From the NCBI GenBank assembly GCA_963580285.1, contig OY757010.1, positions 61,464,406-61,528,405 of the forward strand: a DNA stretch of 64,000 nt, written 5' to 3'. Shown piece after piece: positions 20,142 through 47,027 of the stretch. How positions within the stretch are numbered: position 1 is the first letter of the stretch; every line of letters starts with the position of its first letter. Position numbers and translations under genes: made by a program. The stretch is from Lucinisca nassula (Eukaryota; Mollusca; Bivalvia; Lucinida; Lucinidae). Under the pieces are notes generated by a model. The model searched no databases, had not been told where the DNA came from, and worked only from the letters and a program-made list of their open reading frames with translations.

Positions 20142-20150
20142 ACATTTTAT
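20142..20150. repeat. 9-bp target-site duplication, left copy
   Basis: ACATTTTAT immediately outside the first base of the left terminal inverted repeat. The same nine bases lie immediately outside the right end (47019-47027). Confidence 0.88.
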
Positions 20151-20301
20151 AGTTGTGTGAAGTTGGCTCTGCAATCGCCCATCTGCATTCAGCTCTGCAT
20201 AAGACTTAACAGGATTCCCTTAATGTAACAGGATTCCTGTTAAGTCTAACCCAGAGCTCGACCTAGCTCGACATAGCTCTGCATAAACTTTCAATTCGGC
20301 A
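20151..20301 (+). repeat. Left terminal inverted repeat, 151 bp perfect
   Basis: Unique-looking outer ~95 bp, including GCAATCGCCCATCTGCATTC, precede the first satellite monomer at ~20250. The first difference from the right end is at 20302 (T against G). An internal inverted pair sits at 20204-20245. Confidence 0.9.
20204..20245. promoter_or_regulatory. Subterminal hairpin, left
   Basis: ACTTAACAGGATTCC and GGATTCCTGTTAAGT form a 15-bp stem with one mismatched position and a 12-nt loop. It begins 53 bp from the element end, exactly as the right-hand counterpart does. A transposase-binding or folding role is inference from position and symmetry. Confidence 0.5.
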
Positions 20302-23300
20302 TTCTTATGCAGAGCTCGACATAGCTCGACGTAGCTCTGCATACAACTTTCAATGTGCCATTCTTATGCAGAGCTCGACATAGATCGACGTAGCTCTGCA
20401 TACAACTTTCAATGTGCCAGTCTTATGCAGAGCTCGACATAGCAGAGCTCGACCTAGCGTATTGCAGAGCTCGACCTAGCTCGACATAGCTCTGCAAACA
20501 ACTTTCAATTCGCAAGTCTTATGCAGAGCTCGACATAGCTCGACGTAGCTCTGCATACTACTTTCAATGTGCCATACTTATGCAGAGCTCGACATAGCTC
20601 GACGTAGCTCTGCATGCAACTTTCAATGTGCCAATTTAGTGCAGAGCTCTGCAATCGCCTTAGGTCTGCATAATCTTAGAAATCATCACATCAATGCACA
20701 GCTCTGCGCTCGACATAGCTCGACGTAGCTCTGCATACAATTTTCAATTCGCCAGTCTTATGCAGAGCTCGACATAGCTCGACGTAGCTCTGCATACATT
20801 TTTCAATGTGCCAGTCTTATGCAGACCTCGACATAGCAGAGCTCGACCTAGCGAATTGCAGAGCTCGACCTAGCTAGACACAGCTCTGCATAAAACTTTC
20901 AATGTGCCAGTCTTATGCAGAGCTCGACATAGCTCGACGTAACTCTGCATAGCTCTGCATACAACTTTCAATGTGCCAGACTTATGCAGAGCTCGACCTA
21001 GCTCGACATAGCTCTGCAAACAACTTTCAATTCGCCAGTCTTATGCAGAGCTGGACATAGCTCGACGAAGCTCTGCGTATTGCTTTCAATGTACCAGTCT
21101 TATGCAGAGCTCGAAATAGCTCGACGTAGCTCTGCATAAATATTTCAATGTGTCATACTTATGCAGAGCTCGACATAGCTCGACGTAGCTCTGCATACAA
21201 CTTTCAATGTGCCATTCTTATGCAGAGCTCGACATAGATCGACGTAGCTCTGCATACAACTTTCAATGTGTTAGTCTTATGCAAAGCTCGACATAGCAGA
21301 GCTCGACCTAGCGTATTGCAGAGCTCGACTTAGCTCGACATAGCTCTGCAAACAACTTTCAATTCACCAGTCTTATGCAGAGCTCGACATAGCTCGACGT
21401 AGCTCTGCATACTACTTTCAATGTGCCAGTCTTATGCAGAGCTCGACATAGCTCGACGTAGCTCTGCATACAACTTTCAATGTGCCAGTTTAGTGCAGAG
21501 CTCTGCAATCGCCTTAGGTCTGCATAATCTTAGAAATCATCACATCAATGCACAGCTCTGCGCTCGACATAGCTCGACGTAGCTCTGCATACAATTTTCA
21601 ATTCGCCAGTCTTATGCAGAGCTCGACATAGCTCGACGAAGCTCTGCATATATTTTTCAATGTGCCAGTCTTATGCAGACCTCGACATAGCAGAGCTCGA
21701 CCTAGCGATTTGCAGAGCTCGACCTAGCTCGACACAGCTCTGCATAAAACTTTCAATGTGCCAGTCTTATGCAGAGCTCGACACAGCTCGACGTACTCTG
21801 CATAGCTCTGCATACAACTTTCAATGTGCCAGACTTATGCAGAGCTCGACCTAGCTCGACATAGCTCTGCAAACAACTTTCAATTCGCCAGTCTTATGCA
21901 GAGCTCGACATAGCTCGACGTAGCTCTGCATACTACTTTCAATGTACCAGTCTTATGCAGAGCTCGACATAGCTCGACGTAGCTCTGCATACATATTTCA
22001 ATGTGTAATACTTATGCAGAGCTCGACATAGCTCGACGTAGCTCTGCATACAACTTTCAATGTGCCATTCTTATGCAGAGCTCGACATAGATCGACGTAG
22101 CTCTGAATACAACTTTCAATGTGCCAGTCTTATGCAGAGCTCGACATAGCAGAGATCGAGCTGTTGTATTGCAGAGCTCGACCTAGCTCGACATAGCTCT
22201 GCAAACAACTTTCAATTCGCCAGTCTTATGCAGAGCTCGACATAGCTCGACGTAGCTCTGCATACTACTTTTAATGTGCCAGTCTTATGCAGAGCTCGAC
22301 ATTGCTCGACGTAGCTCTGCATAAATATTTCAATCTGCCATACTTATGCAGAGCTCGACATAGCTCGACGTAGCTCTGCATACAAATTTCAATGTGCCAG
22401 TTTAGTGCAGAGCTCTGCAATCGCCTTAGGTCTGCATAATCTTAGAAATCATCACATCAATGCACAGCTCTGCGCTCGACATAGCTCGACGTAGCTCTGC
22501 ATACATTTTTCAATGTGCCAGTCTTATGCAGAGCTCGACATAGCTCGACGTAGCTCTGCATACATTTTTCAATGTGCCAGTCTTATGCAGACCTTGACAT
22601 AGCAGAGCTCGACCTAGCGAATTGCAGAGCTCGACCTAGCTCGACACAGCTCTGCATAAAACTTTCAATGTGCCAGTCTTATGCAGAGCTCGACACAGCT
22701 CGACGTAACTCTGCATAGCTCTGCATACAACTTTCAATGTGCCAGACTTATGCAGAGCTCGACCTAGCTCGACATAGCTCTGCAAACAACTTTCAATTCG
22801 CCATTCTTATGCAGAGCTCGACATAGCTCGACGTAGCTCTGCATACTACTTTCAATGTACCAGTCTTATGCAGAGCTCGACATAGCTCGACGTAGCTCTG
22901 CATACATATTTCAATGTGTAATACTTATGCAGAGCTCGACATAGCTCGACGTAGCTCTGCATACAATTTTCAATGTGCCATTCTTATGCAGAGCTCGACA
23001 TAGATCGACGTAGCTCTGCATACAACTTTCAATGTGCCAGTCTTATGCAGAGATCGACATAGCAGAGCTCGACCTAGCGTATTGCAGAGCTCGACCTAGC
23101 TCGACATAGCTCTGCAAACAACTTTCAATTCGCCAGTCTTATGCAGAGCTCGACATAGCTCGACGTAGCTCTGCATACTACTTTCAATGTGCCAGTCTTA
23201 TGCAGAGCTCGACATAGCTCGACGTAGCTCTGCATAAATATTTCAATCTGCCATACTTATGCAGAGCTCGACATAGCTCGACGTAGCTTTGCATACAACT

Positions 23301-26300
23301 TTCAATGTTCCAGTTTAGTGCAGAGCTCTGCAATCGCCTTAGGTCTGCATAATCTTAGAAATCATCACATCAATGCACAGCTCTGCGCTCGACATAGCTC
23401 GACGTAGCTCTGCATACATTTTTCAATGTGCCAGTCTTATGCAGAGCTCGACATAGCTCGACGTAGCTCTGCATACATTTTTCAATGTGCCAGTCTTATG
23501 CAGACCTCGACATAGCAGAGCTCGACCTAGCGAATTGCAGAGCTCGACCTAGCTCGACACAGCTCTGCATAAAACTTTCAATGTGCCAGTCTTATGCAGA
23601 GCTCGACACAACTCGACGTAACTCTGCATAGCTCTGCATACAACTTTCAATTAGCCAGACTTATGCAGAGCTCGACCTAGCTCGACATAGCTCTGCAAAC
23701 AACTTTCAATTCGCCAGTCTTATGCAGAGCTCGACATAGCTCGACGTAGCTCGACGTAGCTCTGCATACAACTTTCAATGTGCCAGACTTATGCAGAGCT
23801 CGACCTAGCTCGACATAGCTCTGCAAACAACTTTCAATTCGCCAGTCTTATGCAGAGCTCGACATAGCTCGACAAAGCTCGACGTAGCTCTGCATGAATA
23901 TTTCAATGTGTCATACTTATGCAGAGCTCGACCTAGCTCGACACAGCTCTGCATAAAACTTTCAATGTGCCAGTCTTATGCAGAGCTCGACATAGCTCGA
24001 CGTAACTCTGCATAGCTCTGCATACAACTTTCAATGTGCCAGACTTATGCAGAGCTCGACCTAGCTCGACATAGCTCTGCAAACAACTTTCAATTCGCCA
24101 GTCTTATGCAGAGCTCGACATAGCTCGACATAGCTCTGCATACTACTTTCAATGTACCAGTCTTATGCAGAGCTCGACATAGCTCGACGTAGCTCTGCAT
24201 AAATATTTCAATGTGTCATACTTATGCAGAGCTCGACATAGCTCGACGTAGCTCTGCATACAACTTTCAATGTGCCATTCTTATGCAGAGCTCGACATAG
24301 ATCGACGTAGCTCTGCATACAACTTTCAATGTGCCAGTCTTATGCAGAGCTCGACATAGCAGAGCTCGACCTAGCGTATTGCAGAGCTCGACCTAGCTCG
24401 ACATAGCTCTGCAAACAACTTTCAATTCGCCAGTCTTATGCAGAGCTCGACATAGCTCGACGTAGCTCTGCATACTACTTTCAATGTGCCAGTCTTATGC
24501 AGAGCTCGACATAGCTCGACGTAGCTCTGCATAAATATTTCAATGTGCCATACTTATGCATAGCTCGACATAGCTCGACGTAGCTCTGCATACAACTTTC
24601 AATGTTCCAGTTTAGTGCAGAGCTCTGCAATCGCCTTAGGTCTGCATAATCTTAGAAATCATCACATCAATGCACAGCTCTGCGCTCGACATTGCTCGAC
24701 GTAGCTCTGCATACATTTTTCAATGTGCCAGTCTTATGCAGAGCTCGACATACCTCGACGAAGCTCTGCATACATTTTTCAATGTGCCAGTCTTATGCAG
24801 ACCTCGACATAGAAGAGCTCGACCTAGCGAATTGCAGAGCTCGACCTAGCTCGACACAGCTCTGCATAAATCAATGTGTCACTCTTATGCAGAGCTCGAT
24901 ATAGCTCGACGTAACTCTGCATAGCTCTGCATACAACTTTCAATGTGCCAGACTTATGCAGAGCTCGACCTAGCTCGACATAGCTCTGCAAACAACTTTC
25001 AATTCGCCAGTCTTATGCACAGTTCGACATAGCTCGACGTAGCTCTGCATACTACTTTCAATGTACCAGTCCAGAGCTCGACATAGCTCGACGTAGCTCT
25101 GCATAAATATTTCAATGTGCCATACTTATGCAGAGCTCGACATAGCTCGACGTAGCTCTGCATACAACTTTCAATGTGCCATTCTTATGCAGAGCTCGAC
25201 ATAGATCGACGTAGCTCTGCATACAACTTTCAATGTGCCAGTCTTATGCAGAGATCGACATAGCAGAGCTCGACCTAGCGTATTGCAGAGCTCGACCTAG
25301 CTCGACATAGCTCTTCAAACAACTTTCAATTTGCAAGTCTTATGCAGAGCTCGACATAGCTCGACGTAGCTCTGCATACTACTTTCAATGTGCCAGTCTA
25401 ATGCAGAGCTAGACATAGCTCGACGTAGCTCTGCATACAACTTTCAATGTACCAGTTTAGTGCTCTGCAATCGCCTTAGGTCTGCATAATCTTAGAAATC
25501 ATCACATCAATGCACAGCTCTGCGCTCGACATAGCTCGACGTAGCTCTGCATACATTTTTCAATGTGCCAGTCTTATGCAGACCTCGACATAGCAGAGCT
25601 CGACCTAGCGAATTGCAGAGCTCGACCTAGCTCGACACAGCTCTGCATAAAACTTTCAATGTGCCAGTCTTATGCAGAGCTCGACATAGCTCGACGTAAC
25701 TCTGCATAGCTCTGCATACAACTTTCAATGTGCCAGACTTATGCAGAGCTCGACCTAGCTCGACATAGCTCTGCAAACAATTTTCAATTCGCCAGTCTTA
25801 TGCAGAGCTCGACATAGCTCGACGTAGCTCTGCATACTACTTTCAATGTACCAGTCTTATGCAGAGCACGACATAACTCGACGTAGCTCTGTTTAAATAT
25901 TTCAATGTGCCATACTTATGAAGAGCTCGACAAAGCTCGACGTAGCTCTGCATGCAACTTTCAATGTGCCAATTTAGTGCAGAGCTCTGCAATCGCCTTA
26001 GGTCTGCATAATCTTAGAAATCATCACATCAATGCACAGCTCTGCGCTCGACATAGCTCGACGTAGCTCTGCATACAATTTTCAATTCGCCAGTCTTATG
26101 CAGAGCTCGACATAGCTCGACGTAGCTCTGCATACATTTTTCAATGTGCCAGTCTTATGCAGACCTCGACATAGCAGAGCTCGACCTAGCGAATTGCAGA
26201 GCTCGACCTAGCTCGACACAGCTCTGCATAAAACTTTCAATGTGCCAGTCTTATGCAGAGCTCGACATAGCTCGACGTAACTCTGCATAGCTCTGCATAC

Positions 26301-29300
26301 AACTTTCAATGTGCCAGTCTTATGCAGACCTCGACATAGCAGAGCTCGACCTAGCGAATTGCAGAGCTCGACCTAGCTCGACACAGCTCTGCATAAAACT
26401 TTCAATGTGCCAGTCTTATGCAGAGCTCGACATAGCTCGACGTAACTCTGCATAGCTCTGCATACAACTTTCAATGTGCCAGACTTATGCAGAGCTCGAC
26501 CTAGCTCGACATAGCTCTGCAAACAACTTTCAATTCGCCAGTCTTATGCAGAGCTGGACATAGCTCGACGAAGCTCTGCATACTGCTTTCAATGTACCAG
26601 TCTTATGCAGAGCTCGACATAGCTCGACGTAGCTCTGCATAAATATTTAAATGAGTCATACTTATGCAGAGCTCGACATAGCTCGACGTGCAACTTTCAA
26701 TGTGCCAGTTTAGTGCAGAGCTCTGCAATCGCCTTAGGTCTGCAAAATCTTAGATATCATCACATCAATGCACAGCTCTGCGCTCGACATAGCTCGACGT
26801 AGCTCTGCATACAATTTTCAATTCGCCAGTCTTATGCAGAGCTCGACATAGCTCGACGAAGCTCTGCATACATTTTTCAATGTGCCAGTCTTATGCAGAC
26901 CTCGACATAGCAGAGCTCGACCTAGCGATTTGCAGAGCTCGACCTAGCTCGACACAGCTCTGCATAAAACTTTCAATGTGCCAGTCTTATGCAGAGCTCG
27001 ACACAGCTCGACGTAACTCTGCATAGCTCTGCATACAACTTTCAATGTGCCAGACTTATGCAGAGCTCGACCTAGCTCGACATAGCTCTGCAAACAACTT
27101 TCAATTCGCCAGTCTTATGCAGAGTTCGACATAGCTCGACGTAGCTCTGCATACTACTTTCAATGTACCAGTCTTATGCAGAGCTCGACATAGCTCGACG
27201 TAGCTCTGCATACATATTTCAATGTGTCATACTTATGCAGCGCTCGACATAGCTCGACGTAGCTCTGCATACAACTTTCAATGTGCCATTCTTATGCAGA
27301 GCTCGACATAGATCGACGTAGCTCTGCATACAACTTTCAATGTGCCAGTCTTATGCAGAGCTCGACATAGCAGAGCTCGACCTGGCGTATTGCAGAGCTC
27401 GACCTAGCTCGACATAGCTCTGCAAACAACTTTCAATTCGCCAGTCTTATGCAGAGCTCGACATAGCTCGACGTAGCTCAGCATACTACTTTTAATGTGC
27501 CAGTCTTATGCAGAGCTCGACATAGCTCGACGTAGCTCTGCATAAATATTTCCATCTGCCATACTTATGCAGAGCTCGACGTAGCTCTGCATACAAATTT
27601 CAATGTGCCAGTTTAGTGCAGAGCTCTGCAATCGCCTTAGGTCTGCATAATCTGAGAAATCATCACATCAATGCACAGCTCTGCGCTCGACATAGCTCGA
27701 CGTAGCTCTGCATACATTTTTCAATGTGCCAGTCTTATGCAGAGCTCGACATAGCTCGACGTAGCTCTGCATACATTTTTCAATGTGCCAGTCTTATGCA
27801 GACCGCGACATAGCAGAGCTCGACCTAGCGAATTGCAGAGCTCGACCTAGCTCGACACAGCTCTGCATAAAACTTTCAATGTGCCAGTCTTATGCAGAGC
27901 TCGACACAGCTCGACGTAACTCTGCATAGCTCTGCATACAACTTTCAATGTGCCAGACTTATGCAGAGCTCGACCTAGCTCGACATAGCTCTGCAAACAA
28001 CTTTCAATTCGCCAGTCTTATGCAGAGCTCGACATAGCTCGACGTAGCTCTGCATACTACTTTCAATGTACCAGTCTTATGCAGAGCTCGACATAGCTCG
28101 ACGTTACTCTGCATAAATATTTCAATGTGTCATACTTATGCAGAGCTCGACATAGCTCGACGTAGCTCTGCATACAACTTTCAATGTGCCATTCTTATGC
28201 AGACCTCGACATAGATCGACGTAGCTCTGCATACAACTTTCAATGTGCCAGTCTTATGCAGAGCTCGACATAGCAGAGCTCGACCTAGCGTATTGCAGAG
28301 CTCGACCTAGCTCGACATAGCTCTGCAAACAACTTTCAATTCGCCAGTCTTATGCAGAGCTCGACATAGCTCGACGTAGCTCTGCATACTACTTTCAATG
28401 TGCCAGTCTTATGCAGAGCTCGACATAGCTCGACGTAGCTCTGCATAAATATTTCAATGTGCCATACTTATGCAGAGCTCGACATAGCTCGACGTAGCTC
28501 TGCATACAAATTTCAATGTTCCAGTTTAGTGCAGAGCTCTGCAATCGCCTTAGGTCTGCATAATCTTAGAAATCATCACATCAATGCACAGCTCTGCGCT
28601 CGACATAGCTCGACGTAGCTCTGCATACATTTTTCAATGTGCCAGTCTTATGCAGAGCTCGACATAGCTCGACGTAGCTCTGCATACATTTTTCAATGTG
28701 CCAGTCTTATGCAGACCTCGACATAGCAGAACTCGACCTAGCGAATTGCAGAGCTCGACCTACCTCGACACAGCTCTGCATAAAACTTTCAATGTGCCAG
28801 TCTTATGCAGAGCTCGACACAGCTCGGCGTAACTCTGCATAGCTCTGCATACAACTTTCAATGAGCCAGACTTATGCAGAGCTCGACCTAGCTCGACATA
28901 GCTCTGCAAACAACTTTCAATTCGCCAGTCTTATGCAGAGCTCGACATAGCTCGACGTAGCTCTGCATACTACTTTCAATGTACCAGTTTTATGCAGAGC
29001 TCGACATAGCTCGACGTAGCTCTGCATAAATATTTCAATGTGTCATACTTATGCAGAGCTCGACATAGCTCGATGTAACTCTGCATACAACTTTCAATGT
29101 GCCATTCTTATGCAGAGCTCGACATAGATCGACGGTAGCTCTGCAAACAACTTTCAATGTGCCAGTCTTATGCAGAGCTCGACATAGCAGAGCTCGACCT
29201 AGCGTATTGCAGAGCTCGACTTTGCTCGACATAGCTCTGCAAACAACTTTCAATTCGCCAGTCTTATGCAGAGCTCGACATAGCTCGACGTAGCTCTGCA

Positions 29301-32300
29301 TACTACTTTCAATGTGCCAGACTTATGCAGAGCTCGACATAGCTCGACGTAGCTCTGCATAAATATTTCAATGTGCCATACTTATGCAGAGCTCGACATA
29401 GCTCGACGTAGCTCTGCATGCAACTTTCAATGTGCCAGTTTAGTGCAGAGCTCTGCAATCGCCTTAAGTCTGCATAATCTTAGATATCATCACATCAATG
29501 CACAGCTCTGCGCTCGACATAGCTCGACGTAGCTCTGCATACAATTTTCAGTTCGCCAGTCTTATGCAGAGCTCGACATAGCTCGACGTAGCTCTGCATA
29601 CATTTTTCAATGTGCCAGTCTTATGCAGACCTCGACATAGCAGAGCTCGACCTAGCGAATCGCAGAGCTCGACCTAGCGAATTGCAGAGCTCGACCTAGC
29701 TCGACACAGCTCTGCATAAAACTTTCAATGTGCCAGTCTTATGCAGAGCTCGACATAGCTCGACGTAACTCTGCATAGCTCTGCATACAACTTTCAATGT
29801 GCCAGACTTATGCAGAGATCGACCTAGCTCGACATAGCTCTGTAAACAACTTTCAATTCGCCAGTCTTATGCAGAGCTCGACATAGCTCGACGTAGCTCT
29901 GTATACTACTTTCAATGTACCAGTCTTATGCAGAGCTCGACATAGCTCGACGTAGCTCTGCATAAATATTTCAATGTGTCATACTTATGCAGAGCTCGAC
30001 ATAGCTCGACGTAGCTCTGCATACAACTTTCAATGTGCCATTCTTATGCAGAGCTCGACATAGATCGACGTAGCTCTGCATGCAACTTTCAATGTGCCAG
30101 TCTTATGCAGAGCTCGACATAGCAGAGCTCGACCTAGCGTATTGCAGAGCTCGACCTAGCTCGACATAGCTCTGCAAACAACTTTCAATTCGCCAGTCTT
30201 ATGCAGAGCTCGACATAGCTCGACGTAGCTCTGCATACTACTTTCAATGTGCCAGTCTTATGCAGAGCTCGACATAGCTCGACGTAGCTCTGCATAAATA
30301 TTTCAATGTGCAATACTTATGCAGAGCTCGACATAGCTCGATGTAGCTCTGCATACAACTTTCAATGTGCCAGTTTAGTGCAGAGCTCTGCAATCGCCTT
30401 AGGTTTGCATAATCTTAGAAATCATCACATCAATGCACAGCTCTGCGCTCGACATAGCTCGACGTAGCTCTGCATACAATTTTCAATTCGCCAGTCTTAT
30501 GCAGAGCTCGACATAGCTCGACGTAGCTCTGCATACATTTTTCAATGTGCCAGTCTTATGCAGATCTCGACATAGCAGAGCTCGACCTAGCGAATTGCAG
30601 AGCTCGACCTAGCTCGACACAGCTCTGCATAAAACTTTCAAGGTGCTCGTCTTATGCAGAGCTCGACATAGCTCGACGTAACTCTGCATTGCTCTGCATA
30701 CAGCTTTTAAAGTGCCAGACTTATGCAGAGCTCGACCTAGCTCGACATAGCTCTGCAAACAACTTTCAATTCGCCAGTCTTATGCAGAGCTCGACATAGC
30801 TCGACGTAGCTCTGCATAAAACTTTCAATGTGGCAGTCTTATGCAGAGATCGACGTAGATCGACGTAGCTCTGCATACAACTTTCAATGTGCCAGTCTTA
30901 TGCAGAGCTCGACATAGCAGAGCTCGACCTAGAGAATTGTAGAGCTCGACCTAGCTCGACATAGCTCTGCAAACAACTTTCAATTCGCCAGTCTTATGCA
31001 GAGCTCGACATAGCTCGACGTAGCTCTGCATACTTCTTTCGATGTGCCAGTCTTATGCAGAGCTCGACATAGCTCGACGTAGCTCTGCCTAAATATTTTA
31101 ATATGCCAGACTTATGCAGAGCTCGACATAGCTCGACGTAGCTCTGTATACAACTTTCATTGTGCCAGTTCAGTGCAGAGCTCTGCAATCGCATTAGGTC
31201 TGCATACTCAGCACATCAATGCCCAGCTCTGCGCTCGACATAGCTCGACGTAGCTCTGCATACAATTTTCAATTCGGGAGTCTTATGCAGAGCTTGACAT
31301 AGCTCGACGTAGTTCTGCATACAATTTTCAATGTCCCAGTCGTATGCAGAGCTCGACATAGATCGAAGTAGCTCTGCATACAACTTTCAATGTGCCAGTC
31401 TTATGCAGAGCTCGACATAGCAGAGCTCGACCTAGCGAATTGTAGAGCTCGACCTAGCTCGACATAGGTCTGCATACAACTTTCAATTCGCCAGTCTTAT
31501 GTAGAGCTCGACATAGCTCGACGTAGCTCGGTATACAACTTTCAATGTGCCATACTTATGCAGAGCTCGACATAGCACAGCTCGACCTAGCGAATTGCAG
31601 AGCTCGACCTAGGTCGACATAGCTCTGCATACAACTTTCAATTTGCCATTCTTATGCAGAGCTCGACATGGCTCGACTTAGCTCTGCATACAACTTTCAA
31701 TGTGCCAGTCATCTGCAGAGCTCGACATAGCTCGACGTAGCTCTGCATACAACTCCCAATGTGCCAATTTAGTGCAGAGCTTTGCAATCGCCTTAGGGCT
31801 GCATAAACTTAGAAATCAGCACATCAATGCACAGCTCCGCGCTCGACATAGCTCAACATAGCTCTGCATACAACTTTCAATTCGATAGTCTTATGCAGAG
31901 CTCGACATAGCTGTGCATAGTACCTTCAATGTACCAGTCTTATGCAGAGCTCGACCTGGCTCGACGTAGCTCTGCATACGACTTTCAATGTGCCAGTTTA
32001 GTGCAGAGCTCTGCAATCGCCTCAGGTCTGCACAAACTTAGAAATCAGCACATCAATGCACAGCTCTGCGCTCGACACAGCTCGACGTAGCTCTGCAGAC
32101 AACTTCCAATTTGCGAGTCTTATGCGGAGCTCGACAAAGCTCTGCATGCAACTTTCAATGTGCAAGTTTAATGCAGTGCTCTGCAATCTCCTTAGGTCTG
32201 TATAAACTTAGAAATCAGCACATCATTACAGAGCTCTGCGCTCGACATATTTCGACGCAGCTCTGCATACAACTTTCAATTCGCCAGTCTTATGAAGAGC

Positions 32301-34232: not shown

Positions 34233-34246
34233 TTAACGCGACATTT

Positions 34247-34775: not shown

Positions 34776-34832
34776 CGCGTGTGGCCGGTTGTAACGTGAT
34801 CTATCTCGTATTAACACATAGCAATGTTTATA

Positions 34833-35231: not shown

Positions 35232-35394
35232 TATTTCTATTCTTGCCATGAGAGCAAGATTTAACGCATGAATACATATACCTTGATATTTAACAATAGA
35301 AGGAGCCCCTTCGCCAGAAAAAAGTATTGTTAATGGGCTTTTGAGTATTACAATAATGCAACTGATACAGTTCTAACTACCATCACAAGTCAAA

Positions 35395-35635
35395 AAACTG
35401 ATTGGGCTGCATGATGCTATCACGCCGAGCTGAAACCAACCGCACATGAGTAGTGGTAAACAGCTTAGAGGTTCTAAGCATCGTGCGAGGTGGAACATAC
35501 ATGCATATAAACCCTATCAGTTTCATTGGGCGGAAGGGCTTGATAAGCCATTTTATCTCAATGTGTGGTAAAAGTCCCACAAAACTGGGAGTGACGTCTC
35601 CAAAATGACCTTAACAGTGTTGACGGGTATATTAA
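35395..35635 (+). mobile_element. SINE-C, decayed
   Basis: CTGATTGGGCTGCATGATGC, AACCGCACATGAGTAGTGGT, ATATAAACCCTATCAGTTTC and AAAAGTCCCACAAAACTGGG are in family order; ends GTGTTGACGGGTATATTAAG. The tail is lost where repeat B begins. Confidence 0.72.
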
Positions 35636-35644
35636 GTAGTAGTG

Positions 35645-35890
35645 GAGGCAATGATCAGGAATCGACACAACTAGCCCGCAGCTCCCACCAGAGACACCAA
35701 AGGGAAAGAAACACAAACATGAAACAACAGACCCTAATAGAAACATCAATAGCGGAAAGCCAAAAGGACAGTTACTTTTCCACAAATGGCCAACAGGCTA
35801 TCCAAATTAAAATAATATAAGCGACACAAACACCCAAAGACAAACCTTATTAAAAATAAACCGCGACAGAAGAATCGCCTTGGAACGGTT
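35645..35890 (+). repeat. Repeat family B, 3'-truncated copy
   Basis: Begins GGAGGCAATGATCAGGAATC and follows family order to CGCCTTGGAACGG at ~35890, where similarity stops. Like the copy at 1157-1467 it lacks the second half. Confidence 0.7.
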
Positions 35891-35948
35891 TTGTTAAGCC
35901 TTATGAAACAAACAAAGCATTACAGTACTATGTTGTTATGGAGAAATT

Positions 35949-36056
<108 letters not shown>

Positions 36057-36544
36057 TGTCTATTCCAGATTGTAGTACAAACTTAATTCTGATATAATTT
36101 TTTTTTTGCTTGCACGGTAAATACCCTCATTGAGCAGAACAAAATCCAAGTGAACTTCCACGTAAAAACTGAATGAGAGAGACAATGCAATTACATCTGA
36201 TGTCGCGATTAAGTAACAGTATGAAACACCTCTAGAACCTGTCCAGCAAACACACAACGTGTTTTGAACGTCGAACGCTATGACGTTGTATCGACGTTGA
36301 TACGACGTTGCATATACGTCACGTGCCTTCTGTGTGCATATAAATTATATAAAAATAGCCTCTCCTTTCCAAGCTATTTAGACTGTCAGAAGATTGTGTC
36401 ATGCATGACTTTGGTAAAGACAGATTGACAACACTCGTCTTTTTTCCTTTGTTTTAACTTTCTACTGATACTGCAATCCGTCAAAATAAATTTGACTGTT
36501 ACTAACAGGAGTACATTTTACACATCGCAGGTTTGCCGGATGTG

Positions 36545-36780
36545 AGTGTGAGTGTTTCAGTTTTACGTCCCACCAACAGCTAAGGTCATACGGAGACGGG
36601 ACCTCGGTTTAAAGACTCATCCGAAAGTCTGGAGAAGCCCGGGATCGAATTTGCCGGATGTAAGACTACACTGTAATCATGTAATTTAGCCGACACTATC
36701 GATGGTTCTACCATCATAGAAGGCCTCCATGTAATGTCCCGATCAAAAGGACGGTGGAATGTCCGGGACTTGTAGATATA
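36545..36780 (-). mobile_element. SINE-D fragment
   Basis: Shares CTACACTGTAATCATGTAAT, GGTTCT, AATGTCCCGATC and AAAGGACGGTG with the 63328-63621 copy. The tRNA-like head is missing. Confidence 0.5.
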
Positions 36781-36905
36781 GAGCTGAAACTGGCCACACA
36801 TGAGTACTGTTAAATCGCTTAGAACGACTAATCCTGGCCAGGCAAAGTGGTGTAAGTCAGCCCTTCCAATGCATAAGAGCCTTTTGGTTTCATTTGGCGT
36901 CATGA
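36781..36905 (+). mobile_element. SINE-C fragment split by another SINE-C
   Basis: GAGCTGAAACTGGCCACACA to TTTCATTTGGCGTCATG follows the family order and is interrupted at the target duplication of the minus-strand SINE-C at 36917. Older than its invader. Confidence 0.6.
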
Positions 36906-36916
36906 TAGGCGGAGAA

Positions 36917-37225
36917 ATTTTGTTTGTTTGTTTGATTTGAGGTTTAACGTCCCCGTCAACACTGTAAAATGTCATTTTGGAGACGTTGCTTCCAATTTTG
37001 TGGGACTTTTACCCAACATTGAGATAAAATGACATCTCAAGCCCTGTCGCCCAATGAAACCAATAGGGTTTATCAGCATGAATGGTCCGCCTCGCACCGC
37101 GGTTCCTGGACAGGCTTGGATCCTCTAAGCGGTTTACCAGTACTAGTGTCCGGGCCAGATTCAGCTTTGCGTGGAAGCATCATCCAGCCCATATATTTCT
37201 TCAAGCCCCTATGGGCGGGGGCCGC
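36917..37225 (-). mobile_element. SINE-C, full length, minus orientation
   Basis: 309 bp between perfect 12-bp duplications ATAGGCGGAGAA (36905-36916 and 37226-37237). Tail on the left (TTTTGTTTGTTTGTTTGATT), head GGGGGCCG on the right. Sequence is close to the 18503-18808 copy, so probably a fairly recent insertion. Confidence 0.92.
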
Positions 37226-37375
37226 ATAGGCGGAGAAGAGACAGTAGGTTCATACTATTATACAAAGGTCTAATGGGTTCTGTCAGTATTCCAACAGATG
37301 ACCTCGGCGATGTAGAAATCACCATGCATTTGCATTTCAGACCCATACTGCAAGAACTGATGTGTACAAAGATTC

Positions 37376-37698
37376 GACCGGTCCCGATAGCTCAGTTGGT
37401 AGAGTGTCCGCTCCGGGGAACGGGAGGTCACGGGTTCGATCCCGGGCCGCGACATACCAAAGTCGTTAAAAATGGTACTAGCTGCTCCTCGCTTGGCTCT
37501 CAGATTTACGGTGTAGAGCTAGGACTGGTCGACCCAGTGTCAGGATAATGTGATTGGGTGTGGTATCATGTAATGTGTCTTGAGAGATGATACTTCAGTG
37601 AGGCAGCACTATAAAAGTGAGCATTGAGCTCCCTGTCGCAACCAGACACCGTCGTGATATGACAGAAAAATTGTTAAAAGCGACGTTAAACCCGAATT

Positions 37699-37731
<33 letters not shown>

Positions 37732-37748
37732 ACACACATACACACACA
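37376..37748 (+). mobile_element. SINE-A, full length, with CA tail
   Basis: Perfect 13-bp duplications TGTACAAAGATTC (37363-37375 and 37749-37761). A tRNA-like head at about 37380-37455 has A box TAGCTCAGTTGG and B box GGTTCGATCCC. The body includes GGTACTAGCTGCTCCTCGCT and GGACTGGTCGACCCAGTGTC and ends CGACGTTAAACCCGAATTC followed by a ~50-bp CA-rich tail. The intact duplication implies a young insertion into the loop of the giant element. Confidence 0.93.
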
Positions 37749-37944
37749 TGTACAAAGATTCTTTTTCCCCTCGGACAATTAGGGATTGATTCGATCATTT
37801 CCTCAGCTGAAGGTGCTGAGGATAGTGTAGCTAAGTTTACCTCTTTGGTGATAGCTAGGGACTAACTTGCCATATCACAGGTGGTTATGGTGTATCAATG
37901 TCATTTATCATTTCACCAGTAACGATTCTGATTCTGATGACTTT

Positions 37945-38045
37945 AGAAGTAATGTCATCTGAATGTCGGGTAAGAGTCCCACAAAATTGGAGGAAGCGTC
38001 TCTAAACTGACCTAACTAGTGTTGATTTGGACATCAAATCTCGTA
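37945..38045 (+). mobile_element. SINE-C 3' fragment
   Basis: ATGTCATCTGAATGTCGGGT, AGAGTCCCACAAAATTGGAG and GTGTTGATTTGGACATCAAA correspond to the last ~90 bp of SINE-C. Confidence 0.6.
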
Positions 38046-38185
38046 AGTTTTACGTTTCCGGTTGATCGATATTTAACTGTAGGAGGAGTTCCGCTCACAA
38101 GATACATACTACTGACTTGGAAACCATGCAAAATAGTCTAACTTGAAATGAGAAAAAGTGAAAACATTATTTCAGGATAAAAAAA

Positions 38186-38240
38186 ACAAGAGGACCATGA
38201 TGGTCCTATATCGTTCATCTGAGCTAAACGATTAGAAGTT
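38186..38240 (-). mobile_element. End fragment of a pearl/HINE-like element
   Basis: AACAAGAGGACCATGATGGT followed by CCTATATCGTTCATCTGAGC resembles the complement of the 3' end at 60138-60175 (hairpin around CCATCATGG, then CTCTTGTTT). Only the terminus is present. It lies ~80 bp from the start of the right satellite arm. Confidence 0.5.
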
Positions 38241-38317
38241 TCAGGACGTTCCAATCTTTACCGGAGGATTTATGCTGATGGCAAGGTCAAAAACAGGCAT
38301 TCTCAGCCTTCAAGGGG

Positions 38318-41300
38318 ATGTCGAGCTCTGCATAAGACTGGCGAATTGAAAGTTGTTTGTAGAGCTATGTCGAGCTAGGTCGAGCTCTGCAATTCGCTAT
38401 GTCGAGCTCTGCTAAGTCGAGCTCTGCATAAGACTGGCACATTGAAAGTTGTTTGCAGAGCTACGTCGAGCTATGTCGAGCTCTGCATAAGACTGGCGAA
38501 TTGAAAGTTGTATGCAGAGCTATGTCGAGCTAGGTCGAGCTCTGCAATTCGCTAGGTCGAGCTCTGCAATTCGCTAGGTCGAGCTCTGCTATGTCGAGCT
38601 GTGCATAAGACTGGCACATTGAAATTTGTATTCAGAGCTACGTCGATCTATGTCGAGCTCTGCATAAGACTGGCACATTGAAAGTTGTATGCAGAGCTAC
38701 GTCGAGCTATGTCGAGCTCTGTATAAGACTGGCGCATTGAAAATTGTATGCAGAGCTACGTCGAGCTATGTCGAGCACAGAGCTGTGCATTGATGTGCTG
38801 ATTTCTAAGATTATGCAGACCTAAGGCGATTACAGAGCTCTGCACTAAACTGGCACATTGAAAGTTGTATGGAGAGCTACGTCGAGCTATGTTGAGCTCT
38901 GCATAAGTCTGGCACATTGAAATATTTATGCAGAGCTATGTCGAGCTATGTCGAGCTCTGCATAAGACTGGCACATTGAAAGTAGTATGTAGTGCTATGT
39001 CGAGCTATGTCGAGCTAGGTCGAGCTCTGCAATTCGCTAGGTCGAGCTCTGCTATGTCGAGCTCTGCGCTTACCTGGCACATTGAAAGTTGTATGCACAG
39101 CTACGTCGAGCTATGTCGAGCTCTGCATAAGACTTGCGAATTGAAAATTGCATGCAGAGCTACGTCGAGCTATGTCGAGCGCAGAGCTGTGCATTGATGA
39201 GCTGATTTCTAAGATTATGCAGACCTAATGCGATTGCAGAGCTCTGCACTAAACTGGCACATTGAAAGTTGTATGCAGAGCTATGTCGAGCTAGGTCGAG
39301 CTCTGCAATTCGCTAGGTCGAGCTCTGCTATGTCGAGCTCTGCATAAGACTGGCACATTGAAAGTAGTACGCAGAGCTACGTCGAGCTATGTCGAGCTCT
39401 GCATAAGACTGGCGAATTGAAAATTGTATGCAGAGCTACGTCGAGCTATGTCGAGCGCAGATCTGTGCATTGATGTGATGATTTCTAAGATTATGCAGAC
39501 CTAAGGCGATTGCAGAGCTCTGCACTAAAGTGGCACATTGAAAGTTGTATGCAGAGCTACGTCGAGCTATGTCGAGCTCTGCATAAGTATGGCACATTGA
39601 AATATTTATGCAGAGCTATGTCGAGCTCTGCATAAGACTGGCGAATTGAAAATTGTATGCAGAGCTACGTCGAGCTATGTCGAGCGCAGATCTGTGCATT
39701 GATGTGATGATTTCTAAGATTATGCAGACCTAAGGCGATTGCAGAGCTCTGCACTAAAGTGGCACATTGAAAGTTGTATGCAGAGCTATGTCGAGCTAGG
39801 TCGAGCTCTGCAATTCGCTAGGTCGAGCTCTGCTATGTCGAGCTCTGCATAAGACTGGCACATTGAAAGTAGTACGCAGAGCTACGTCGAGCTATGTCGA
39901 GCTCTGCATAAGACTGGCGAATTGAAAATTGTATGCAGAGCTACGTCGAGCTATGTCGAGCGCAGATCTGTGCATTGATGTGATGATTTCTAAGATTATG
40001 CAGACCTAAGGCGATTGCAGAGCTCTGCACTAAAGTGGCACATTGAAAGTTGTATGCAGAGCTACGTCGAGCTATGTCGAGCTCTGCATAAGTATGGCAC
40101 ATTGAAATATTTATGCAGAGCTACGTCGAGCTATGTCGAGCTCTGCATAAGACTGGCACATTGAAAGTAGTATGCAGAGCTACGTCGAGCTATGTCGAGC
40201 TCTGCATAAGACTGGCGAATTGAAAGTTGTTTGCAGAGCTATGTCGAGCTAGGTCGAGCTCTGCAATACGCTAGGTCGAGCTCTGCTATGTCGAGCTCTG
40301 CATAAGACTGGCACATTGAAAGTTGTATGCAGAGCTACGTCGATCAATGTCGAGCTCTGCATAAGAATGGCACATTGAAAGTTGTATGCAGAGCTACGTC
40401 GAGCTATATCGAGCTCTGCATAAGACTGCCACATTGAAAGTTTTATGCAGAGCTACGTCGAGCTATGTCGAGCTCTGCATAAGACTGGCGAATTGAAAGT
40501 TGTTTGCAGAGCTATGTCGAGCTAGGTCGAGCTCTGCATAAGTCCGGCACATTGAAAGTTGTATGCAGAGCTATGCAGAGTTACGACGAGCTGTGTCGAG
40601 CTCTGCATAAGACTGGCACATTGAAAGTTTTATGCAGAGCTGTGTCGAGCTAGGTCGAGCTCTGCAATTCGCTAGGTCGAGCTCTGCAATTCGAGGTCTG
40701 CATAAGACTGGCACGTTGAAAAATGTATGCAGAGCTACGTCGAGCTATGTCGAGCGCAGAGCTGTGCATTGATGTGATGATTTCTAAGATTATGCAGACC
40801 TAAGGCGATTGCAGAGCTCTGCACTAAACTGGCACATTGAAAGTTGTATGCAGAGCTACGTCGAGCTATGTCGAGCTCTGCATAAGTATGGCAGATTGAA
40901 ATATTTATGCAGAGCTACGTCGAGCTATGTCCAGCTCTGCATAAGACTGGCACATTGAAAGTAGTACGCAGAGCTACGTCGAGCTATGTCGAGCTCTGCA
41001 TAAGACTGGCGAATTGAAAGTTGTTTGCAGAGCTATGTCGAGCTAGGTCGAGCTCTGCAATACGCTAGGTCGAGCTCTGCTGGCACATTGAAAGTTGTAT
41101 GCAGAGCTACGTCGATCTATGTCGAGCTCTGCATAAGAATGGCACATTGAAAGTTGTATGGAGAGCTACGTCGATCTATGTCGAGCTCTGCATAAGAATG
41201 GCACATTGAAAGTTGTATGCAGAGCTACGTCGAGCTATGTCGAGCTCTGCATAAGTATGACATATTGAAATATTTATGCAGAGCTACGTCGAGCTATGCA

Positions 41301-44300
41301 TAAGACTGGTACATTGAAAGTAGTATGCAGAGCTTCGTCGAGCTATGTCGAGCTCTGCATAAGACTGGCGAATTGAAAGTTGATTGCAGAGCTATGTCGA
41401 GCTAGGTGGAGCTCTGCATAAGTCTGGCACATTGAAAGTTGTATGCAGAGCTATGCAGAGTTACGTCGAGCTATGTCGAGCTCTGCATAAGACTGGCACA
41501 TTGAAAGTTTTATGCAGAGCTGTGTCGAGCTAGGTCGAGCTCTGCAATTCGCTAGGTCGAGCTCTGCTATGTCGAGGTCTGCATAAGACTGGCACATTGA
41601 AAAATGTATGCAGAGCTACGTCGAGCTATGTCGAGCTCTGCATAAGACTAGCGAATTGAAAATTGTATGCAGAGCTACGTCGAGCTATGTCGAGCGCAGA
41701 GCTGTGCATTGATGTGATGATTTCTAAGATTATGCAGACCTAAGGCGATTGCAGAGCTCTGCACTAAACTGGTACATTGAAAGTTGCATGCAGAGCTACG
41801 TCGAGCTATGTCGAGCTCTGCATAAGTATGGCACATTGAAATATTTATGCAGAGCTACGTCGAGCTATGTCGAGCTCTGCATAAGACTGGCACATTGAAA
41901 GTAGTATGCAGAGCTACGTCGAGCTATGTCGAGCTCTGCATAAGACTTGCGAATTGAAAGTTGTTTGCAGAGCTATGTCGAGCTAGGTCGAGCTCTGCAA
42001 TACGCTAGGTCGAGCTCTGCTATGTCGAGCTCTGCATAAGACTGGCACATTGAAAGTTGTATGCAGAGCTACGTCGATCTATGTCGAGCTCTGCATAAGA
42101 ATGGCACATTGAAAGTTGTATGCAGAGCTACGTCGAGCAATGTCGAGCTCTGCATAAGTATGGCACATTGAAATATTTATGCAGAGCTACGTCGAGCTAT
42201 GTCGAGCTCTGCATAAGACTGGCACATTGAAAGTAGTATGCAGAGCTACGTCGAGCTATGTCGAGCTCTGCATAAAACTTGCGAATTGAAAGTTGTTTGC
42301 AGAGCTATGTCGAGCTAGGTCGAGCTCTGCAATACGCTAGGTCGAGCTCTGCTATGTCGAGCTCTGCATAAGACTGGCACATTGAAAGTTGTATGCAGAG
42401 CTACGTCGATCTATGTCGAGCTCTGCATAAGAATGGCACATTGAAAGTTGTATGCAGAGCTACGTCGAGCTATGTCGAGTTCTGCATAAGTATGACACAT
42501 TGAAATATTTATGGAGAGCTACGTCGAGCTATGTCGAGCTCTGCATAAGACTGGTACATTGAAAGTAGTATGCAGAGCTTCGTCGAGCTATGTCGAGCTC
42601 TGCATAAGACTGGCGAATTGAAAGTTGTTTGCAGAGCTATGTCGAGCTAGGTCGAGCTGTGCATAAGTCTGGCACATTGAAAGTTGTATGCAGAGCTATG
42701 CAGGGTTACGTCGAGCTATGTCGAGCTCTGCATAAGACTGGCACATTGAAAGTTTTATGCAGAGCTGTGTCGAGCTAGGTCGATCTCTGCAATTCGCTAG
42801 GTCGAGCTCTGCTATGTCGAGGTCTGCATAAGACTGGCACATTGAAAAATGTATGCAGAGCTACGTCGAGCTATGTCGAGCTCTGCATAAGACTAGCGAA
42901 TTGAAAATTGTATGCAGAGCTACGTCGAGCTATGTCGAGCGCAGAGCTGTGCATTGATGTGATGATTTCTAATATTATGCAGACCTAAGGCGATTGCAGA
43001 GCTCTGCACTTAACTGGCACATTGAAAGTTGCATGCAGAGCTACGTCGAGCTATGTCGAGCTCTGCATAAGTATGGCACATTGAAATATTTATGCAGAGC
43101 TACGTCGAGCTATGTCGAGCTCTGCATCAGACTGGCACATTGAAAGTAGTATGCAGAGCTACGTCGAGCTATGTCGAGCTCTGCATAAGGCTTGCGAATT
43201 GAAATGTGTTTGCAGAGCTATGTCGAGCTAGGTCGAGCTCTGCAATACGCTAGGTCGAGCTCTGCTATGTCGAGCTCTGCATAAGACTGGCACATTGAAA
43301 AGTGTATGCAGAGCTACGTCGATCTATGTCGAGCTCTGCATAAGAATGGCACATTGAAAGTTGTATGCAGATCTACGTCGAGCTATGTCGAGCTCTGCAT
43401 AAGTATGACACATTGAAATATTTATGCTGAGCTACGTCGAGCTATGTCGAGCTCTGCATAAGACTGGTACATTGAAAGTAGTATGCAGAGCTACGTCGAG
43501 CTATGTCGAGCTCTGCATAAGACTGGCGAATTGAAAGTTGTTTGCAGAGCTATGTCGAGCTAGGTCGAGCTCTGCATAAGTCTGGCACATTGAACGTTGT
43601 ATGCAGAGCTATGCAGAGTTACGTCGAGCTGTGTCGAGCTCTGCATAAGACTGGCACATTGAAAGTTTTATGCAGAGCTGTGTCGAGCTAGGTCGAGCTC
43701 TGCAATTCGCTAGGTCTAGCTCTGCTATGTCGAGGTCTGCATAAGACTGGCACATTGAGAAATGTATGCAGAGCTACGTCGAGCTATGTCGAGCTCTGCA
43801 TAAGACTGGCGAATTGAAAATTGTATGCAGAGCTACGTCGAGCTATGTCGAGCGCAGAGCTGTGCATTGATGTGATGATTTCTAAGATTATGCAGACCTA
43901 AGGCGATTGCAAAGCTCTGCACTAAACTGGCACATTGAAAGTTGCATGCAGAGCTACGTCGAGCTATGTCGAGCTCTGCATAAGTATGGCACATTGAAAT
44001 ATTTATGCAGAGCTACGTCGAGCTATGTCGAGCTCTGCATAAGACTGGCACATTGAAAGTAGTATGCAGAGCTACGTCGAGCTATGTCGAGCTCTGCATA
44101 AGACTTGCGAATTGAAAGTTGTTTGCAGAGCTATGTCGAGCTAGGTCGAGCTCTGCAATACGCTAGGTCGAGCTCTGCTATGTCGAGCTCTGCATAAGAC
44201 TGGCACATTGAAAGTTGTATGCAGAGCTACGTCGATCTATGTCGAGCTCTGCATAAGAATGACACATTGAAAGTTGTATGCAGAGCTACGTCGAGCTATG

Positions 44301-46922
44301 TCGAGCTCTGCATAAGTATGGCACATTGAAATATTTATGCAAAGCTACGTCGAGCTATGTCGAGCTCTGCATAAGACTGGCACATTGAAAGTAGTATGCA
44401 GAGCTACGTCGAGCTATGTCGAGCTCTGCATAAAACTTGCGAATTGAAAGTTGTTTGCAGAGCTATGTCGAGCTAGGTCGAGCTCTGCAATACGCTAGGT
44501 CGAGCTCTGCTATGTCGAGCTCTGCATAAGACTGGCACATTGAAAGTTGTATGCAGAGCTACGTCGATCTATGTCGAGCTCTGCATAAGAATGACACATT
44601 GAAAGTTGTATGCAGAGCTACATCGAGCTATGTCGAGCTCTGCATAAGTTTGACACATTGAAATATTTATGGAGAGCTACGTCGAGCTATGTCGAGCTCT
44701 GCATAAGACTGGTACATTGAAAGTAGTATGCAGAGCTTCGTCGAGCTATGTCGAGCTCTGCATAAGACTGGCGAATTGAAAGTTGTTTGCAGAGCTATGT
44801 CGAGCTAGGTCGAGCTCTGCATAAGTCTGGCACATTGAAAGTTGTATGCAGAGCTATGCAGAGTTACGTCGAGCTATGTCGAGCTCTGCATGAGACTGGC
44901 ACATTGAAAGTTTTATGCAGAGCTGTGTCGAGCTAGGTCGAGCTCTGCAATTCGCTAGGTCGAGCTCTGCTATGTCGAGGTCTGCATAAGACTGGCACAT
45001 TGAAAAATGTATGCAGAGCTACGTCGAGCTATGTCGAGCTCTGCATAAGACTAGCGAATTGAAAATTGTATGCAGAGCTACGTCGAGCTATGTCGAGCGC
45101 AGATCTGTGCATTGATGTGATGATATCTAAGATTATGCAGACTTAAGGCGATTGCAGAGCTCTGCACTAAACTGGCACATTGAAAGTTGCATGCAGAGCT
45201 ACGTCGAGCTATGTCGAGCTCTGCATAAATATGGCACATTGAAATATTTATGCAGAGCTACGTCGAGCTATGTCGAGCTCTGCATCAGACTGGCACATTG
45301 AAAGTAGTATGCAGAGCTACGTCGAGCTATGTCGAGCTCTGCATAAGGCTTGCGAATTGAAAGTTGTTTGCAGAGCTATGTCGAGCTAGGTCGAGCTCTG
45401 CAATACGCTAGGTCGAGCTCTGCTATATCGAGCTCTGCATAAGACTGGCACATTGAAAGTTGTATGCAGAGCTACGTCGATCTATATCGAGCTCTACATA
45501 AGAATGGCACATTGAAAGTTGTATGCAGAGCTACGTCGAGCTATGTCGAGCTCTGCATAAGTATGACACATTGAAATATTTATGCTGAGCTACGTCGAGC
45601 TATGTCGAGCTCTGCATAAGACTGGTACATTGAAAGTAGTATGCAGAGCTACGTCGAGCTATGTCGAGCTCTGCATAAGACTGGCGAATTGAAAGTTGTT
45701 TGCAGAGCTATGTCGAGCTAGGTCGAGCTCTGGATAAGTCTGGCACATTGAAAGTTGTATGCAGAGCTATGCAGAGTTACGTCGAGCTGTGTCGAGCTCT
45801 GCATAAGACTGGCACATTGAAAGTTTTATGCAGAGCTGTGTCGAGCTAGGTCGAGCTCTGCAATTCGCTAGGTCTAGCTCTGCTATGTCGAGGTCTGCAT
45901 AAGACTGGCACATTGAAAAATGTGTGCAGAGCTACGTCGAGCTATGTCGAGCTCTGCATAAGACTGGCGAATTGAAAATTGTATGCAGAGCTACGTCGAG
46001 CTATGTCGAGCGCAGAGCTGTGCATTGATGTGATGATTTCTAAGATTATGCAGACCTAAGGCGATTGCAGAGCTCTGCACTAAACTGGCACATTGAAAGT
46101 TGTATGCAGAGCTACGTCGAGCTATGTCGAGCTCTGCATAAGTATGGCAGATTGAAATATTTATGCAGAGCTACATCGAGCTATGTCAAGCTCTGCATAA
46201 GACAGGCACATTGAAAGTAGTATGCAGAGCTACGTCGAGCTATGTCGAGCTCTGCATAAGACTGGCGAATTGAAAGTTGTTTGCAGAGCTATGTCGAGCT
46301 AGGTCGAGCTCTGCAATACGCTAGGTCGAGCTCTGCTATGTCGAGCTCTGCATAAGACTGGCACATTGAAAGTTGTATGCAGAGCTACGTCGATCTATGT
46401 CGAGCTCTGCATAAGAATGGCACATTGAAAGTTGTATGCAGAGCTACGTCGAGCTATGTCGAGCTCTGCATAAGTATGGCACATTGAAATATTTATGCAG
46501 AGCTACGTCGAGCTATGTCGAGCTCTGCATAAGACTGGCACATTGAAAGTAGTATGCAGAGCTACGTCGAGCTATGTCGAGCTCTGCATAAGACTTGCGA
46601 ATTGAAAGTTGTTTGCAGAGCTATGTCGAGCTAGGTCGAGCTCTGCAATACGCTAGGTCGAGCTCTGCTATGTCGAGCTCTGCATAAGACTGGCACATTG
46701 AAAGTTGTATGCAGAGCTACGTCGATCTATGTCGAACTCTGCATAAGAATGGCACATTGAAAGTTGTATGCAGAGCTACGTCGAGCTATGTCGAGCTCTG
46801 CATAAGTATGGCACATTGAAATATTTATGCAGAGCTACGTCGAGCTATGTCGAGCTCTGCATAAGACTGCCGAATTGAAAGTTTATGCAGAGCTATGTCG
46901 AGCTAGGTCGAGCTCTGGGTTA
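38318..46922 (-). repeat. Right satellite arm (same satellite, inverted)
   Basis: Starts abruptly at ATGTCGAGCTCTGCATAAGA with well-preserved monomers. The marker TCTAAGATTATGCAGACC (ends at 40800, 41740, 42985, 43898, ~45143, 46056) gives spacings of about 940, 1245, 913, 1245, 913 bp: two higher-order repeat lengths alternate, differing by 332 bp. Variant monomers of the left arm (for example the CATAGCTCTGCAT doubling next to GACGTAACTC) recur here in complement, so the arms share one repeat library. Inner section 39.26-40.11 kb contains a local duplication of ~0.5 kb. No genes. Confidence 0.95.
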
Positions 46923-47018
46923 GACTTAACAGGAATCCTGTTACATTAAGGGAATCCTGTTAAGTCTTATGCAGAGCTGAATGCAGATGGGCGATTGCAG
47001 AGCCAACTTCACACAACT
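46868..47018 (-). repeat. Right terminal inverted repeat, 151 bp perfect
   Basis: Exact complement of 20151-20301, ending GCCAACTTCACACAACT. The transition to unique flank is at 47019, with the duplicated 9-bp target. Confidence 0.9.
46924..46965. promoter_or_regulatory. Subterminal hairpin, right
   Basis: ACTTAACAGGAATCC paired with GGAATCCTGTTAAGT. Its outer edge is 53 bp from 47018, the same distance as on the left. Confidence 0.5.
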
Positions 47019-47027
47019 ACATTTTAT
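47019..47027. repeat. 9-bp target-site duplication, right copy
   Basis: ACATTTTAT directly after the last base of the right terminal repeat; identical to 20142-20150. Confidence 0.88.

Follow-up and report, generated by a model that had tools for sequence, protein, structure and literature searches.

Giant foldback-type elements with satellite-DNA arms in the genome of the bivalve Lucinisca nassula

Structure of the element in the window

The stretch analysed here, referred to as the window, comprises 64,000 nucleotides of the lucinid bivalve Lucinisca nassula (C1:61464406-61528405, C1 denoting contig OY757010.1) in a genome assembly of 2.93 Gb and 696 contigs. It contains a unit of 26,868 bp with inverted ends (positions 20151-47018), which directly abuts a 9-bp duplication, ACATTTTAT, located at 20142-20150 on the left and at 47019-47027 on the right. 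The only run of N in the window (56703-56902) lies outside the unit. An earlier reading, made from the letters of the window alone (the sequence-only reading), had described a foldback-like transposon at this position, and its coordinates, the perfect 151-bp inverted repeat, the flanking 9-mer and the opposed arms were all reproduced in our analysis.

The outermost part of each end is a terminal domain, hereafter the tip, which lies ahead of the satellite and is present in copies throughout the genome. The left tip occupies 20151-20251 on the forward strand and the right tip, its perfect inverted copy, 46918-47018 on the reverse strand. A subterminal hairpin in the left tip (20191-20258) has arms at 20191-20218 and 20231-20258 that are 86% complementary, and the position of the mirrored hairpin at the right end (46911-46978) was derived from the perfect inverted repeat. 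While the ends are indeed perfect over 151 bp, as the sequence-only reading had stated, the colinear end is in fact 424 bp long: the left inverted repeat (20151-20574, forward strand) matches 46536-47018 (reverse strand) with two mismatches, and the right side contains one extra 59-bp unit. The perfect repeat stops at 151 bp because this unit intervenes there.

Taken by itself, the window fits a duplication of 9 bp (with 151-bp ends) as well as one of 7 bp (with 152-bp ends), because the 9-mer starts with A and ends with T. The 7-bp reading was rejected, since other copies of the element confirm a length of 9 bp. The probability that a given 9-mer matches by chance is about 5e-6, and ACATTTTAT occurs in the window also at 11988 and 19731. 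The window holds 11,202 maximal perfect inverted-repeat pairs with a length of 25 bp or more, and no pair other than that of the element is immediately bordered by a direct repeat of 7-10 bp.

Two satellite arms of opposite orientation follow the tips. The left arm (20252-33900, forward strand) measures about 13.7 kb and continues in degenerate units to about 34340, and the right arm (38311-46917, reverse strand) measures about 8.6 kb. The word GAGCTCGAC was found 187 times in the left arm, where its reverse complement is absent, and 131 times in the reverse-complemented right arm, counted in that orientation. The two arrays are therefore opposed, in agreement with the sequence-only reading, but they are not plain arrays of a 59-bp satellite. 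Instead, units of 59, 96, 121, 69 and 49 bp build a 913-bp higher-order repeat in both arms, with the layout 59x5, 96, 59x3, 121, 59, 96, 69. The units become more diverged towards the interior, as indicated by the correlation of best-match score with position (Spearman -0.56 in the left and -0.34 in the right arm). Tip and satellite have exact words of 12-14 bp in common, and few or none of 300 shuffles reach the scores of the tip-satellite alignments (p 0.003 to 0.02). This is modest evidence that the satellite may derive from the tip. Neither the satellite letters nor those of a 167-bp array elsewhere in the window gave a match in the open-access literature searched, and viral contigs scanned with the satellite word gave none either.

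The interior between the arms (33940-38310) contains no long open reading frames (ORFs), the longest stop-to-stop frame being 140 amino acids, and consists to about one half of dispersed repeats. Those recurring in the window cover 49% of it, compared to 25% and 32% of the flanks. A repeat resembling a short interspersed nuclear element (SINE) with a tRNA head is embedded in the left arm, at its degenerate inner end (33924-34230, forward strand), and a tRNA-headed SINE in the interior (37376-37748, forward strand) is flanked by its own 13-bp duplication TGTACAAAGATTC at 37363-37375 and 37749-37761.

Copies of the element across the genome

Genome searches were conducted with 151-bp and 29-bp tips instead of the outer 95 bp that the sequence-only reading had proposed. 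With the 29-bp tip and up to 2 mismatches, 197 matches were obtained (102 forward and 95 reverse), compared to none in either direction for the control. Positions were listed for 100 of the 197, all of them exact matches, and the statements on pairing given below refer to these. The listed tips make up 39 convergent pairs, whose members lie 17.5-126 kb apart (median 35.7 kb). Within 150 kb, no listed tip has a neighbour that is divergent or points in the same direction. Duplications were read in 15 of the 39 pairs, 12 out of 13 being positive in one set and two more being positive separately. Hence, perfect 9-bp duplications flank 14 of the 15 pairs, including the one in the window, and all 14 differ in sequence. 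The paired inversion and the flanking direct repeats of 8-10 bp which the sequence-only reading had predicted for further copies were thus recovered. In a comparison of 43 distinct tips, a set partly drawn from the best matches, 26 match the left tip of the window exactly over 149 bp (itself included), and the most divergent one shows 26 mismatches. Inverted ends made of subrepeats, a constant duplication and multiple copies with the same ends, the three features tested for the foldback-type structural class, are all present. By extrapolation, about 98 elements with a mean length of 34.6 kb, taken from 37 of the 39 listed pairs with the two largest excluded, would amount to about 3.4 Mb or 0.12% of the genome.

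These data also bear on an origin without any transposon, by inversion or segmental duplication in a satellite array or as an artefact of assembly. Satellite arrays are hard to assemble, the copies were read as assembled, and ten short similarities (25-107 bp) occur among the 200-bp flanks of other tips. Such an origin is nevertheless extremely unlikely in view of the six copies that are gap-free (see below), the different 9-bp duplications at 14 of 15 sites, the exclusively convergent neighbours among the tips listed and the lack of similarity in flanking sequence between the window copy and the most closely related of the copies read.

Three further arrangements of tips were noticed. The pair at C1:25888664-25959725, in which the duplication is lacking, could be a recombination chimera of two elements, which would imply a rearrangement. 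The convergent tips at C12:20529730-20655849, 126 kb apart, may belong to one very large copy or represent two unrelated ends. At C4:139708668-139708933, the tip of another copy is accompanied, about 110 bp further out, by a second tip that faces outward (positions 23-151, 97% identical).

Inheritance of the satellite arms

Six copies were read whole and are free of N, namely the window copy and five pairs that had both ends among the first 40 exact matches listed. Due to this choice, the six lean towards well-kept tips. They measure 21.4, 26.9, 29.0, 32.7, 35.7 and 42.7 kb, contain tips at both ends only and carry satellite arms without exception, with arm lengths of about 9-21 kb. Over their 188.5 kb, 222 exact 35-bp satellite words were counted; a satellite confined to about 98 elements would be expected to give about 4,000 in the genome. 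The variation in arm length between copies is in line with what the sequence-only reading had anticipated. An interior of about 3-5 kb is common to five of the six and differs by 0.46-1.99% substitutions (gaps ignored). The copy at C3:176.09M has no interior, and its arm limits were set by hand; the copies at C3:96.7M and C10:136.3M lack a counterpart of window positions 37382-38310.

The window copy was compared with the copy at C1:137.57M, 76 Mb away. The two have different duplications, show no similarity between their 200-bp flanks and differ by 0.46% substitutions in the interior. In one orientation, they are colinear through left arm, interior and right arm, with 18.5 kb of chained exact matches (at least 120 bp each). 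The opposite orientation gives 6.1 kb, and a comparison of the two arms of the window copy with each other 2.4 kb. For the arms alone, matched arms share 14.6 kb and crossed arms 6.1 kb. Odd unit lengths occur in the same order in both copies, such as a unit of 68 bp and the series 92-69-59-113. The colinearity through both arms indicates that the unit was copied together with its satellite, which supports the earlier claim of a single mobile unit that includes the arms. As the total lengths of the two copies differ by 8.9 kb at 0.46% interior substitutions, the arrays must change their length fast. Among the five copies that can be oriented by their interior, matched arms exceed crossed arms in 10 of 10 copy pairs. 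Whole arms were clearly inherited in the one pair; in the others, the signal is weak but consistent.

The nearest neighbours of individual satellite units lie in the same arm for 21-32% of units (8-9% expected), in the element's other arm for 4-7% (8.5-8.7% expected) and in other elements for 61-73% (82-83% expected). These proportions are consistent with inheritance together with local duplication, and not with exchange between the arms of one element.

It is very unlikely that a small transposon was inserted at each site and that the arms then grew independently in place, with the satellite as a secondary acquisition. Even the two closest copies differ in arm length by kilobases, nearest-neighbour units are 2.3-3.6 times more frequent in the same arm than expected, which denotes local duplication, and arm colinearity is weak except in one pair, all of which such growth would account for. 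It is largely refuted, however, by the window copy and its relative at C1:137.57M, which are colinear along both arms including the odd unit lengths at 0.46% interior substitutions, and by the excess of matched arms in all ten interior-oriented pairs. Moreover, the smallest of the 39 listed pairs spans 17.5 kb.

From the window alone, gene conversion between the two arms of one element looked likely as the process that keeps the ends alike. There, the six full-length higher-order repeats among 25 blocks are alike at 97.2% between and 97.7% within arms (permutation p 0.074), single units are likewise nearly as similar between as within arms, and exact cross-arm matches reach 296 bp. The comparison of six copies lends no support to this process, which we therefore dropped as improbable: neighbours in the opposite arm are not enriched (4-7% compared to 8.5-8.7% expected), and other elements supply 61-73% of the nearest neighbours, so that the likeness is family-wide.

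Proposed mobilisation and comparison with known elements

Tips, their pairing, the 9-bp duplications, the shared interior and arms that are colinear between unrelated sites were observed directly. We consider it very probable that the unit in the window belongs to a multicopy family of giant DNA transposons that are non-autonomous and of the foldback type, and that are most likely mobilised by a transposase of Mutator-like elements (MULEs).

Several observations weigh against this interpretation. Among the 100 listed tips, 22 have no listed partner, although partners may be among the 97 unlisted ones, and one of the 15 pairs read (C1:25888664..25959725, 71 kb) has no duplication. Strong arm colinearity was seen in the pair of the window copy and C1:137.57M only; the matched-arm excess in the nine other interior-oriented pairs is just 0.3-2.0 kb, and the interior-less copy shows no consistent excess. 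Regarding coding capacity, no Pfam match above the cut-off was obtained for 15 scanned out of the 38 ORFs of at least 50 amino acids in the window interior, and no stop-to-stop frame longer than 160 amino acids occurs in the central stretches of the six whole copies, the interiors of the other copies having been scanned for ORF length only. Of 118 MULE-domain matches that were checked, none is located inside any of the 39 listed pairs or less than 200 kb away from them. Finally, according to a review, the efficiency of DNA transposition falls above about 6 kb, yet cargoes of 100-200 kb have been mobilised (PMC6431247; here and below, the literature is cited from excerpts of the papers).

The 118 matches just mentioned stem from a total of at least 130 matches to the MULE domain (PF10551) among 150 scored out of 295 candidates in the genome, some of them in frames of more than 1,000 amino acids. 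The remaining 12 are located on small contigs without listed tips, and proximity was assessed for the listed pairs. In this partial search, the autonomous MULE copy between such ends that the sequence-only reading had envisaged found no support. The link to MULEs is therefore structural, and we infer the membership of the family in this superfamily by analogy. A 9-bp duplication falls within the 8-10 bp characteristic of MULEs (PMC5225508), and the transposase is probably Mutator-like because Tm1, Muta1 and Tetris likewise combine 8-10-bp duplications with composite tandem-repeat ends. A foldback-type transposon of another superfamily, for instance a P/Galileo-like element with a THAP transposase, is unlikely. 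Long internally repeated inverted ends do arise in several superfamilies, with Galileo as the case in the P superfamily (PMC3573991, PMC3688188), and no transposase has been linked to the element described here. However, its duplications measure 9 bp, like those of Tm1 and Muta1, which are MULE/foldback elements, while 7 bp is described for Galileo, a length that the other copies do not support.

At C6:155057844-155089512, we noticed four equal-score MULE-domain matches with open frames of 993 amino acids, about 10 kb apart, two of them forward and the following two reverse.

Each copy read whole consists of the 9-bp duplication, a hairpin tip of about 100 bp, a satellite arm, the non-coding interior (absent in one of the six) and the inverted arm and tip. 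The following model for the probable MULE-mobilised family may be suggested. A transposase provided in trans, most likely of the Mutator-like type, would bind the tip and perhaps also the words resembling it that recur in the satellite units, cut at the tip and insert the element at a target cut staggered by 9 bp. The arms could gain or lose length by unequal exchange or by slippage in gap repair, and they may have originated as duplicated subterminal binding sites. The hypothesis of satellite units as extra binding sites is drawn from Galileo, in which the end repeats bind the DNA-binding domain of the transposase. Tentatively, and with somewhat more doubt than belief, it may be speculated further that this satellite with its higher-order repeat serves as the functional end of the element. 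Amplified, tip-derived binding sites of kilobase size would then be required or favoured for mobilisation in trans, the family would persist as giants only, and transposition would disperse and diversify the satellite.

Among the closest structural counterparts is Tetris, a foldback element of Drosophila virilis (PMC4079207), which was compared by structure only. In Tetris, an outer flanking domain is likewise followed by tandem repeats in the inverted ends, the repeats have a stretch in common with the end domain, the variable middle is without coding capacity, duplications are 8-10 bp, and no transposase is known (PMC4079207). Its arrays reach 66 repeats, and fibre-fluorescence in situ hybridisation shows long arrays within Tetris (PMC4079207); satellite growth inside a foldback element is thus already known. 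The differences are that the ends of Tetris measure at most 1,735 bp with repeats of about 220 bp in three structurally complete assembled copies (PMC4079207), whereas the element described here has gap-free arms of about 9-21 kb, a 913-bp higher-order repeat and 39 listed tip pairs, and its arms can be traced from copy to copy.

Tm1, a Mutator/Foldback family of Meloidogyne (PMC3169594), is similar in its duplications, which were recorded in 45 of 53 complete elements and measure 8-10 bp, in most cases 9 bp. It has a Phantom-like MULE transposase in one copy class, which is a likeness to the proposed mobilisation and, as a known transposase-encoding copy, also a difference; its repeats are about 14 bp and its elements about 1.1-2.6 kb long (PMC3169594). 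The MULEs Muta1 and Muta5 of Aedes aegypti (PMC5225508) resemble the present element in that their ends, which measure 145 and 151 bp, combine a terminal motif (a palindrome in the case of Muta1) with subterminal tandem repeats, and in their 8-9-bp duplications; Muta1 was termed a type 2 foldback element. They differ in being 3.2-3.5 kb long, in encoding a transposase and in having a repeat of 12 or 15 bp that is present nine times (PMC5225508).

Galileo (Drosophila, P superfamily; PMC3573991, PMC3688188) is comparable in that its ends are very long and unstable in length and contain internal repeats, which hold secondary transposase-binding sites; it differs in its 7-bp duplications, longest ends of about 1.26 kb and P-type transposase. 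The MULE relatives Rehavkus and Phantom (PMC6446971) share duplications of 9 bp (Rehavkus) or 8-10 bp and, in some elements, a minisatellite. There, the minisatellite is confined to one side, where it either precedes the 3' end or follows the transposase gene, and a transposase is present (PMC6446971). Teratorn, a giant piggyBac-herpesvirus element of fish (PMC6431247), is likewise a giant element with long inverted repeats, but it contains genes and its own transposase, has ends of 18 bp, and no satellite arms are mentioned in the excerpt.

In assembled copies of other foldback elements (Galileo, Tetris), the ends reach 1.3-1.7 kb at most. With arms of about 9-21 kb and a higher-order repeat in all six copies, and with no listed pair below 17.5 kb, the family is beyond known foldback elements as covered by these sources, which corroborates the judgement of the sequence-only reading on the size of the arms. 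We found no report of such a transposon family in the open-access literature, most subscription journals lying outside this search.

The connection between transposons and satellite DNA has mostly had to be reconstructed from fragmentary remains. In the present genome, higher-order satellite arrays of several kilobases sit within intact elements bounded by matching 9-bp duplications, and two closely related copies show that the arrays were passed on, with much greater changes in their length than in their sequence. The satellite arms travel with the element, and its jumping can spread satellite DNA in the genome. With respect to the earlier proposal that transposition is tied to both the origin and the spread of satellite DNA, spread within elements was found, whereas an origin from the element is conjectural. 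A single genome thereby makes testable the dispersal of satellite DNA, the speed of higher-order-repeat turnover and the movement of inverted repeats of tens of kilobases by a DNA transposon.

The window contains several other repeats. Two direct 454-bp copies (53531-53984 and 54901-55354) are 99.3% identical and have imperfect inverted termini of about 21 bp; with TA at the edges of the first copy, they look like a young pair of miniature inverted-repeat transposable elements. A family of tRNA-headed SINEs with CA-repeat tails is represented at 48084-48454, at 37376-37748 inside the element and at 47204-47515. The copy at 48084 carries a 12-bp duplication, CCTAATATTTAT, and the in-element copy the 13-bp one given above. 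A tandem array with a 167-bp unit and about 88% likeness between units (58407-59878) presumably resembles repeats of bivalve molluscs. Finally, a dispersed repeat of about 300 bp occurs in both orientations with 86-92% identity at 10861-11141, 17935-18232, 18503-18804, 36918-37222 and 60466-60756, the copy at 36918-37222 being located inside the interior of the element.

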